Below, in pieces: positions 6,933 through 63,989 of a stretch of DNA of 64,000 nucleotides. The stretch is from Sphingobium sp. BYY-5. GTDB lineage: Bacteria > Pseudomonadota > Alphaproteobacteria > Sphingomonadales > Sphingomonadaceae. The stretch is taken from the NCBI RefSeq assembly GCF_022758885.1, contig NZ_JALEBH010000001.1, forward strand, positions 1 through 64,000, in the 5' to 3' direction. The first letter of the stretch is position 1. Each line of letters begins with the position of its first letter. Below the pieces are notes generated by a model that was not told the origin of the DNA, did not search any database, and saw only the letters and a program-made list of their open reading frames with translations. The position numbers and the translations under genes are program-made.

Positions 6933-7017
6933 CGTCATGCCAGCGAAGGCTGGCATCTCCCTTCTACTTTCCACCCTTGCCATAAGAAGAGAGATGCCAG
7001 CCTTCGCTGGCATGACG
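6933..7017. repeat. Paired palindromic repeat, copy 1
   Basis: Two inverted units flank about 30 bases. The left unit is at 6933-6959 (CGTCATGCCAGC, GAAG, GCTGGCATCTC) and its reverse complement lies at 6991-7017. Each unit is itself a hairpin. It lies between gshB and the DedA gene and belongs to the family listed at 18.7, 61.5, 62.5 and 63.6 kb. Confidence 0.85.
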
Positions 7018-18683: not shown

Positions 18684-18711
18684 CGTCATCCCCGCCTTCG
18701 CGGGGATGACG
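18684..18711. repeat. Single palindromic repeat unit
   Basis: CGTCATCCCCG, CCTTC, GCGGGGATGACG is a 28-base near-perfect palindrome. It is the same unit as the right half of the pair at 62.55-62.64 kb. Confidence 0.8.
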
Positions 18712-18748: not shown

Positions 18749-18843
18749 CGTCATGCTGACGAAAGTCAGCATCCATTGGCGCAATGGTTGTACGTTGATG
18801 AAAGGCTGAGGCTCATGGATCCCAGCTTTCGCTGGGATGACGG
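18749..18843. repeat. Paired palindromic repeat, heterogeneous copy
   Basis: The left unit at 18749-18776 (CGTCATGCTGAC, GAAA, GTCAGCATCCAT) and the right unit at 18815-18843 (ATGGATCCCAGC, TTTC, GCTGGGATGACGG) are inverted. They differ in the stem core (CTGAC against CCAGC), so each hairpin keeps its own pairing. Confidence 0.8.
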
Positions 18844-47420: not shown

Positions 47421-48268
47421 CACCAATCCCCCGATGCGCCGCCGCCGCCGAAGCCGCCACCGCCTGAAAATCCACCGCCGCCGCTGTCGCCGCCACCCCA
47501 GCCTCCGCCGCCACCCCAGCCTCCGCCGCCACCCCAGCCTCCGCCGCCACCTGATCCCCAGCCGGAGCCGCCCGTTCCCGGCCCCCAGATGATGACGGGT
47601 GGAATGCCACCGCCACGCATGTAGCGCTTGCCGCCGCGTGCCCGTGACAGCAACGGCAGGACGACGAAGAAGACGATGAACAAAATGGCCCAGAAGCCTA
47701 TGATCGAGCCGCCGCCATCGTCCTGCTTGCGCGCATTCGCTTCTGCGGTTGCGGCACGCTGCCTCGCCTGGTCAGGGGGCAGGGCGAGCAGGGTTGTGAT
47801 CTCGTCCACACCGGCATTGACGCCGCCCGCCATGTCGCCGGCCTTGAAGCGCGGAGTAATGGCGGTGCGGATGATCTGGGAAGAAAGGGCGTCGGTCAGG
47901 ATACCTTCCAGGCCATAGCCGACCTCGATGCGCACTTTCCGGTCGTTAGGCGCAATGATCAGCAGCGCGCCATTATTGTCCTTGTCGCCGATCCCCCAGG
48001 CGCGGCCGAGGCGATAGCCATAGTCGGATATGTCATAGCCCTGCAGGTCGGGGATGGTCGCCACGACCAGCGACCGGCCGCTCGCCTGCTTCTGCGCGAT
48101 CAGTTTCTGGCTGAGCGCCTGTTCCTGCGCCGGATCGAGGATGCTCGCGGCATCGACCACGCCCTTGTCGTCGAACTTGGGGAAATTCTGTGCCCATGCT
48201 GCCGGCATGACGACCAGCAGCATGAGGAGCAGGAGTATGTGTGATATCCGCCGTAATGGACCGGCCAT
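47420..48268 (-). CDS. YgcG-like TPM-domain protein with Gly-rich tail
   Basis: This 282-residue exported protein has a signal peptide or anchor (ISHILLLLMLLVVMPAAWAQ, ending near residue 27). A TPM domain covers about residues 30-165 (DDKGVVDAASILDPAQEQALSQKLIAQKQASGRSLVVATI; RLGRAWGIGDKDNNGALLIIAPNDRKVRIEVGYGLEGIL). A transmembrane segment at about 192-207 and a very Gly/Trp-rich C-terminal tail from about 225 (repeated GGGGWGGGGG units) complete it. LemA is encoded upstream on the same strand, the usual lemA-TPM partnership. The low-complexity tail is typical of the family. Confidence 0.88.
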   Translation of the reverse strand: MAGPLRRISHILLLLMLLVVMPAAWAQNFPKFDDKGVVDAASILDPAQEQALSQKLIAQKQASGRSLVVATIPDLQGYDISDYGYRLGRAWGIGDKDNNGALLIIAPNDRKVRIEVGYGLEGILTDALSSQIIRTAITPRFKAGDMAGGVNAGVDEITTLLALPPDQARQRAATAEANARKQDDGGGSIIGFWAILFIVFFVVLPLLSRARGGKRYMRGGGIPPVIIWGPGTGGSGWGSGGGGGWGGGGGWGGGGGWGGGDSGGGGFSGGGGFGGGGASGDW

Positions 48269-61503: not shown

Positions 61504-61586
61504 CGTCATCCTGCCGAAAGTCAGGATCCAGGGCGTCTGAACGCTGTGTGTTGGACTCTGGATGCCGGATCAAGTCCGGCATGACG
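61504..61586. repeat. Paired palindromic repeat between ftsY and yciB
   Basis: The left unit is at 61504-61530 (CGTCATCCTGCC, GAAA, GTCAGGATCCAG) and the right unit at about 61558-61586 (CTGGATGCCGGA, TCAAG, TCCGGCATGACGG). The halves share the outer CGTCAT/ATGACG ends but have different stem cores. Confidence 0.78.
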
Positions 61587-62547: not shown

Positions 62548-62638
62548 CGTCATTCCCGCGAAGGCGGGAATCCATCTCCCGCCATATCCACAAGATGCAA
62601 GCTTGGGAGATGGATCCCCGCCTTCGCGGGGATGACGG
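62548..62638. repeat. Paired palindromic repeat between mtaB and ftsY
   Basis: The left unit begins CGTCATTCCCGC, GAAG, GCGGGAATCCATCTCCC at 62548-62580. The right unit ends with GGGAGATGGATCCCCGC, CTTC, GCGGGGATGACGG by 62638. The inverted arms extend beyond the unit into GGGAGATGGAT, making this the longest copy. Several bases differ between halves but each hairpin pairs internally. Confidence 0.85.
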
Positions 62639-62654
62639 AGGATGGGAATCCCTA

Positions 62655-63989
62655 TCATGCCGCCTCTTGCGCGATCAGCGAGCCATTCTCAAGGCCCGTG
62701 ATGCGCGCGCGCACGATGGAGGAGGGGCATTGTACCGACGCCAACCGCACCGGAGCAAAATTCTCGGCATGGCCAGAAAGCCCGTTCCGTTCCACGAGGA
62801 CCGACTGCTGTGTGCCGATCAGGCTGCGCAGCCAGGCTTCGCGCCGAGTGGCGCAGGCGTCGCGCAGGCGGGCGGCGCGGGCCTTGATCGTCGCGCGATC
62901 GACCTGCGGCATCCGCGCAGCAGGGGTGCCGGCGCGGGGCGAATAGGGGAAGATATGGCCGTGGACGATGTCGCATTCGTCCACCAGCGCCAGGCTGTGT
63001 TCGAACATCGCCTCTTCCTCGGTCGGGAAGCCGGCGATGATGTCGGCGCCGATGCTGATTTCGGCGCGCGCGCTTTTCAGGCGCTCGACGATCCGGATCG
63101 CGTCGGCGCGGCTGTGGCGGCGCTTCATCCGCTTGAGGATCATGTCGTCGCCCGCCTGAAGCGAGAGGTGGAGGTGCGGCATCATACGGGGTTCATGGGC
63201 GATCAGGTCGAATAGGCGGTCGTCGATTTCCACACTGTCGATTGAGGACAGGCGCAGGCGGGGGAGGTCTGGCACGCCCTTCAACAGGCGCTCGACCAGC
63301 AGGCCCAGCGAGGGGCTGCCCGGTAAGTCGGGACCGTAGCTGGTGACGTCCACCCCGGTCAGCACGATTTCCCGATAGCCCACGCCGACCAGTTGCTTGG
63401 CCTTTTCCACCACCGCGCCGGCGGGGACGGAGCGGCTGTTGCCCCGGCCATAGGGGATGATGCAGAAGGTGCAGCGATGGTCGCAGCCATTCTGCACCTC
63501 CAGGAAAGCGCGGGCATGGTCGGCGAAGGCGGACGCCATATGTGGCGCGGTGTCGCGCACGGCCATGATGTCGGAGACTTTGACCTTCTCCGTCACATCA
63601 GCCCAATTCGTCACCCCAGCGAAAGCTGGGGTCTCACTTTCTTTGGGTGAGACAGAAGAAAAGAGAGATCCCAGCTTTCGTTGGGATGACGGAAGATAGG
63701 TTTCCGCCTCCATCTTCTCCCGATTGCCGATCACGCCGTCCACCTCCGCCATCGCGGCGAAGGTCTGCGGTTCGGTCTGGGCGGCGCAGCCGGTGACGAG
63801 GATGCGCGCGTCCGGGCGTTCGCGGCGCGCGCGGCGTATCGCCTGGCGGGTCTGGCGCACCGCTTCGGCCGTCACTGCGCAGCTATTGACCACGATCAGG
63901 TCATCCTGGCCCTGCGCCATATCCCGGATCGCCTCGCTCTCCGCGATGTTGAGGCGGCAGCCCATGGTGATGATGTCCGGCCCGCTCAT
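62655..63989 (-). CDS. mtaB: tRNA t6A37 methylthiotransferase MtaB with in-frame repeat insertion
   Basis: MtaB, a radical-SAM methylthiotransferase, converts t6A37 to ms2t6A37 in tRNAs. The 444-residue protein has the UPF0004 domain with Fe-S Cys residues in ITMGCRLN, VVNSCAVT and LVTGCAAQ. The radical-SAM motif follows in VQNGCDHRCTFCIIPYGRGNSRS, then IVLTGVDVTSYGPDL and SLQAGDDMILKRMKRRHS. A TRAM-like tail follows. Residues about 99-127 (starting YLPSSQRKLGS and ending AFAGVTN) are the translation of a double palindromic repeat at 63609-63691. It lies in the linker between the UPF0004 and radical-SAM domains. No frame is broken, so the enzyme may remain active. Confidence 0.93.
   Translation of the reverse strand: MSGPDIITMGCRLNIAESEAIRDMAQGQDDLIVVNSCAVTAEAVRQTRQAIRRARRERPDARILVTGCAAQTEPQTFAAMAEVDGVIGNREKMEAETYLPSSQRKLGSLFSSVSPKESETPAFAGVTNWADVTEKVKVSDIMAVRDTAPHMASAFADHARAFLEVQNGCDHRCTFCIIPYGRGNSRSVPAGAVVEKAKQLVGVGYREIVLTGVDVTSYGPDLPGSPSLGLLVERLLKGVPDLPRLRLSSIDSVEIDDRLFDLIAHEPRMMPHLHLSLQAGDDMILKRMKRRHSRADAIRIVERLKSARAEISIGADIIAGFPTEEEAMFEHSLALVDECDIVHGHIFPYSPRAGTPAARMPQVDRATIKARAARLRDACATRREAWLRSLIGTQQSVLVERNGLSGHAENFAPVRLASVQCPSSIVRARITGLENGSLIAQEAA
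63609..63691. repeat. Paired palindromic repeat inside mtaB
   Basis: Unit 1 at 63609-63635 (CGTCACCCCAGC, GAAA, GCTGGGGTCTC) and unit 2 at 63665-63691 (GAGATCCCAGC, TTTC, GTTGGGATGACG) are inverted around a 29-base spacer. The whole is read through in frame on the minus strand as part of MtaB. Confidence 0.9.

Follow-up and report, generated by a model that had tools for sequence, protein, structure and literature searches.

Different palindromic repeats recur in frame in one linker of the tRNA methylthiotransferase gene mtaB in sphingomonads

Results

A CGTC-type dimer within mtaB

The window, by which we mean the entire stretch of 64,000 nucleotides of Sphingobium DNA that was analysed, carries on its reverse strand a tRNA methylthiotransferase gene, mtaB (62655–63989; 444 codons). 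The assignment is supported by the open reading frame, by Pfam, by dN/dS and by homologues that carry the name MtaB from their own sources. No internal stop interrupts the frame, and both UPF0004 (residues 6–88) and Radical_SAM (residues 164–335) are recognised by Pfam. Comparison of the window copy with 11 relatives gives a dN/dS of 0.10–0.17 for these domains, which are under purifying selection. The open frame and the low dN/dS speak against mtaB being a pseudogene, a possibility raised in an earlier, sequence-only reading of this DNA.

That reading had also described a complete double palindrome in frame within the gene, and the element is indeed present. Positions 63609–63691 (83 bp, no strand assigned) hold a complete pair of CGTC-type palindromes arranged head to head, with two inverted arms, and by arithmetic correspond to nucleotides 299–381 of the coding sequence and to codons 100–127. 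Arm 1 (63609–63633, forward strand) matches CGTCRYNCCNGCNNNNGCNGGNRYC exactly, whereas arm 2 (63667–63691, reverse strand) matches with one mismatch. As read from the sequence, each arm has an 8-bp stem, with one mismatch in that of arm 2, and a 4-base loop (GAAA), and the tetranucleotide CGTC is terminal in both. The first and second stem pairs are A-T in arm 2, while arm 1, ACCCCAGC, has C-G as its second pair. Both arms have a CTC tail after the stem, and many other dimers of this genome have CCA there. The spacer between the arms (63634–63666, no strand assigned) is predicted by folding to be partly self-complementary, and the plus strand of the dimer (84 nt) has a computed folding energy of −55.5 kcal/mol under RNA parameters.

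The element had been credited with adding about 29 residues between the two domains without introducing a stop or damaging either domain. This description holds, as the MtaB linker is 46 residues long in the window versus 15 in the empty linkers of near relatives, a difference of 31. An AlphaFold model of MtaB based on 52 sequences (computed without residue 1, so that model numbers are one below gene numbering) has a mean pLDDT of 80.8 and depicts residues 106–128 as a coil between the domains with pLDDT below 50, although low confidence is not confined to the insert and also affects residues 169–182 and 282–289. The top fold matches of the model are the integrative MtaB model 9a6d and MiaB 7mjz. 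An exact junction, which the sequence-only reading had proposed to look for in an alignment of orthologues, was not observed; the junction is inexact, with flanks that vary between species. The window shares its right flank with the mtaB of one relative (L041) and its spacer sequence with that of another (L039).

Copies elsewhere in the window and genome

Four further copies had been reported near 6.9, 18.7, 61.5 and 62.5 kb. All are real, but they are not all alike, and no strand is assigned to any of them. Full dimers are found only at 6933–7017, which belongs to the same AGC-stem subtype as the mtaB copy, and at 62548–62637, a CCCGC-subtype dimer between mtaB and ftsY. The dimer at 18749–18842 has a degenerate first arm, and a lone palindrome lies at 18684–18711. 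At 61504–61586, between ftsY and a gene assigned by Pfam to the IspA family, a palindromic element combines one CGTC-like arm with a different one. This second arm centers around GGATCAAGTCCGG, and the element is perhaps a hybrid or a member of a separate family.

When up to one mismatch is allowed, the arm pattern is present at 66 forward and 64 reverse places across the 4.70-Mb genome, compared to 3 and 2 for a reversed control, and a slightly shorter pattern has 95 exact places compared to 1, demonstrating that the repeat exceeds chance. Among the matches listed, 75 clusters were delimited in 53 fetched stretches and the window, after some one-mismatch places judged to be chance were omitted; the 75 still include a chance match at 47491. 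Most clusters are head-to-head pairs, and 48 are dimers of at least 65 bp. A pyrimidine precedes CGTC in 44 of these 48 dimers and a purine follows GACG in 45, suggesting that the repeat unit may extend beyond those ends. The second replicon, C2 (1,303,243 bases, or 28% of the genome; C1 has 3,397,055 bases), appears to be avoided, as it carries only one of the 95 exact CGTC arms and none of 46 places of the CGAGC/CTGAGC type.

Coding-like open reading frames contain eight of the CGTC clusters, and six of these hosts have Pfam support: mtaB, glyS, thiD, ileS and the genes for a class-V aminotransferase and a GH35 beta-galactosidase. The remaining two, at 1456776 and 2446714, were dropped as genes because they lack a Pfam match, as was a frame with a CTGAGC-type dimer at 1678192. 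The genome-wide count of copies in coding frames, a check proposed with the initial description, therefore comes to 6 of the 75 listed clusters, and the arm is read in different frames in different host genes.

The same description envisaged an element that leaves a reading frame open by itself, and our data do not support this part of it. The 48 dimers have on average 3.19 of six frames open versus 3.71 in shuffled sequences, a value below all 300 shuffled sets (range 3.35–4.17). An element adapted to stay open was therefore rejected. The repeat shows no adaptation to translation, and it is the host gene that decides which copies stay.

A profile search of this genome for a Y1 transposase (PF01797) gave no match, while control matches were obtained in 5 of 14 genomes. 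A search for target-site duplications found flanking repeats of at least 4 bases for one of the 48 dimers versus 1.4 expected, and target duplication of the kind left by a MITE of a classical transposon was rejected.

Several palindrome groups fill one linker

The best 80 of 580 mtaB loci, which are largely from Sphingobium and its relatives, are all long open frames, and in many of them the linker is filled by differing palindromes. To these we added 29 best and 100 fetched loci, drawn from the 275 of 298 genomes of the same family that have a match. A linker was obtained from 205 of 210 loci (L115, L126, L132, L203 and L248 gave none), and dropping 20 identical sequences left 185 distinct linkers, among which near-identical strains may persist.

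Inserts of the CGTC type encode PSSQRKLGS...PAFAGVT in the linker, and a similar segment is found in many of 120 near homologues, among the matches listed. The CGAGCGAAGTCGA type is read in two frames, yielding either PFVPSEVEG...STSLDTNG or VRVERSRDT...LDFARSER. Further types include a CTGAGC/TGTCGAAG type, which is related to the CGAGCGAAGTCGA type, and G-rich types. In one mtaB linker (L079), one palindrome type is apparently nested in the arm of a CGTC element.

Each linker was scored by its best inverted repeat without gaps. This score is at least 14 in 41 of the 185 linkers but in none of 185 segments of equal length located just downstream. Lower cutoffs of 13 and 11 give 42 versus 1 and 53 versus 2, respectively. 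Hand assignment placed 55 linkers (17 CGTC, 31 CGAGC/CTGAGC and 7 G-rich), 13 of them scoring below 13 and assigned by motif only, and left 130 without an assigned insert. Six types were named, but they do not amount to as many proven families, since CGAGC resembles CTGAGC and the G-rich types resemble each other, and for this reason three merged groups were counted. The mtaB linker accommodates no fewer than three palindrome groups that clearly differ from each other.

The minimum number of gains was counted on a quick gene tree that excluded the linker, with losses free and collapsed branches resolved most favourably. The three groups require 21 gains, or 20, 13 and 7 when branches with SH-aLRT support under 80, 90 and 95 are collapsed. 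Restricting the count to rows scoring at least 13 gives 16 gains (14, 11 and 7 at the same cutoffs), and the six named types give 25 (24, 17 and 10). These numbers indicate that the linker has been filled repeatedly, even if some of the CGTC copies in Sphingobium trace to one old insertion. Empty, fresh and decayed states of the linker coexist across the bacterial family, and short Sphingobium linkers resemble those of outgroups. Repeat starts mostly cluster 10–45 nt past the GNxxK codons, and the start points and flanks of inserts vary by many bases.

Of 50 genomes from which these loci derive, every one contains the CGTC arm pattern and 48 contain the CGAGC type, with counts in some genomes no higher than those of the reversed control. 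When mtaB itself carries the CGAGC type, this type exceeds the control in every such genome searched (14 of 14), and the same is true for the CGTC type (10 of 10).

The linker compared with other DNA

Repeats scoring at least 14 were compared among 81 loci. They are present in 23 of 81 linkers, in 7 of 80 gaps between mtaB and ftsY and in 10 of 78 gaps between ftsY and the IspA-family gene, where the two gaps average 19 and 49 bp. Outside the linker, the coding DNA of mtaB, ftsY and the IspA-family gene contains two strong repeats in 218 kb, one of which is at the 3′ end of mtaB. The linker therefore behaves like intergenic DNA or is filled more often. In 80 mtaB loci (L031–L110), CGAGC-type dimers are located in the linker and none in the gaps, and CTGAGC-type dimers are mostly outside mtaB; single-arm matches near 2306 and 4248 in many of these loci were taken as conserved gene sequence. 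A mainly intragenic location of the CGAGC type is ruled out in the Sphingobium genome under study, where 2 of 18 loci were flagged and only that in carA is credible. The flagged locus at 1067261 is probably a chance match.

Conservation of the segment in MtaB across distant alphaproteobacteria had been named as an outcome that would refute the sequence-only reading. Outside the family, no strong repeat is present in any of 23 readable mtaB linkers (top score 9), in a sample biased to empty forms because the class search used an empty query. In that search 24 of 29 loci could be read, including one (L431) from the same family.

Inserts in other genes

Additional genes were examined in 31 rows each, comprising the gene of this genome and the 30 top loci from 40 genomes; the genes were chosen for an insert in this genome and the best loci were used, which favours filled forms. 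In glyS, strong repeats of several groups occur near residues 408–417 in 9 of 31 rows and near residues 718–722 in 9 of 31 rows. Two palindromes that differ from each other lie in frame in the glyS gene of this genome (G000:C1:672856-675393, L155), around residues 417–447 and 719–747; a variable stretch around residues 581–640 was not counted as an insert. Repeats in ileS are found near residue 468 in two of 31 rows and near residues 288 and 828 in single rows, and several ileS frames have extensions upstream that were left out of the count. One of 31 thiD rows has a strong repeat, with further decayed copies in the gene of this genome and in that of L354. Together, the sites in glyS, ileS and thiD establish mtaB as one of few such sites and not a unique one. 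A CGAGC-type dimer also lies in frame in carA (G000:C1:1620364-1620439, L387), between the CPSase and glutaminase domains.

Discussion

The survey by Di Nocera, De Gregorio and Rocco (2013, PMC3733652) describes CGTC-tagged REPs as repeats that end in CGTC, have stems of 8–9 bp and loops of 4–5 bases, and form head-to-head dimers. They are mainly alphaproteobacterial, with sphingomonads included, have intragenic copies and lack a dedicated transposase. The mtaB element shares the tag, stem, loop, dimer form, dispersal and intragenic position, and no transposase was found; it fits as a member of this superfamily and as a MITE-like dispersed repeat. The survey gives A-T at the first and second stem positions as almost invariable and the tail as mostly CCA, so that the CTC tail of the mtaB element is a departure from the majority, though the survey refers to most and not all members.

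This source also equates RPE-6 and RPE-4 of R. conorii with CGTC-1 and CGTC-4 REPs, which substantiates the parallel to Rickettsia drawn in the sequence-only reading. RPEs are characterized in a 2024 review (PMC10969869) as palindromes of ∼150 bp that lie in frame in working genes and encode a conserved peptide. In the Sphingobium genome, elements lie in frame in six genes with Pfam support, and a link to RPEs is suggested by the superfamily that the 2013 survey assigns to both. The unit in mtaB is 83 bp and various frames are read.

A further class, the REPINs, consists of two inverted REPs with a spacer, carries a GTAG tag and is mobilised by RAYT transposases. The inverted pair with spacer is common to both, and no target duplication was found here, but our elements have the CGTC tag instead and reside in a genome without a PF01797 match.

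REP inserts in flexible linkers or loops may be neutral, and recB of two Xanthomonas species has REPs at approximately the same site, according to the 2013 survey (PMC3733652). One linker with several palindrome groups across a family is not among the features described in its sections consulted here, and the literature searched yielded no precedent for palindromes in mtaB or for several palindrome groups at one coding site. The kind of repeat and its intragenic copies were already known, and the recurrence at the mtaB linker is new as far as these searches show.

We consider it likely that palindromes insert widely and that they survive selection only in loops able to accommodate additional residues. 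Palindromic elements would land throughout the genome, and any copy that lay within a folded domain, was not in frame or brought in a stop codon would be purged. Copies in a length-tolerant loop would survive, decay and be lost, so that the same loop could be filled again and again. Wide insertion is something that we infer, because no Y1 transposase was found, and the six in-frame clusters in Pfam-supported genes count toward this explanation. The peptide encoded within MtaB would most likely be a disordered spacer that is tolerated and has no required function.

Since the linker is filled more often than the adjacent gaps, a site preference would also fit. In such a case, a mobilising pathway common to several palindrome groups would favour linker DNA, and targeting would matter more than tolerance. 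The restriction of CGAGC-type dimers to the linker as opposed to the gaps and the clustering of repeat starts past the GNxxK codons are consistent with this possibility. However, we judge it unlikely, given that start points and flanks differ by many bases, that groups of different sequence are involved, that glyS has such sites too, that the CGAGC type is not mainly genic in the Sphingobium genome and that CGTC dimers show no target duplication. It is similarly doubtful that the mtaB linker, the two glyS loops and perhaps the carA linker are shared landing pads preferred by a common hairpin- or single-strand-based pathway, with some hairpins or linkers retained because they affect translation or the enzyme.

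A large share of the CGTC copies in Sphingobium may derive from one old insertion, as the PSSQRKLGS...PAFAGVT-like segment in many of the listed homologues and the spacer and flank shared with two relatives suggest. That a single CGTC insertion in the mtaB of a Sphingobium ancestor accounts for the entire pattern, with all other states representing its decay, is refuted: the other palindrome groups cannot be decayed CGTC elements, 7 to 21 gains are required even with losses free, and short Sphingobium linkers look like those of outgroups. We therefore give this explanation a very small chance, and it may hold for part of the CGTC copies.

Another proposal is that the insert is kept for a benefit, either by slowing translation between domains through a hairpin in the mRNA or by tuning the enzyme as a spacer. 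Its position between two domains in both MtaB and CarA and its strong hairpin would suit such a role, but most linkers (130 of 185) are without an assigned insert and unrelated sequences coexist with decayed forms, making a benefit quite improbable. An assembly error or dead gene found no support and can in the main be considered refuted, in view of the open frame, both recognised domains, the low dN/dS and related inserts in independent assemblies.

Retention of widely inserted palindromes in a tolerant loop thus remains our preferred explanation. A single linker in an enzyme under constraint preserves the traces of many natural insertions by palindromes that clearly differ from each other. 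The best-known protein-coding palindromes are those of Rickettsia. The findings make it testable how CGTC repeats move and whether their inserts are neutral or shape proteins, and they draw attention to loops of MtaB and GlyS that naturally tolerate insertions.
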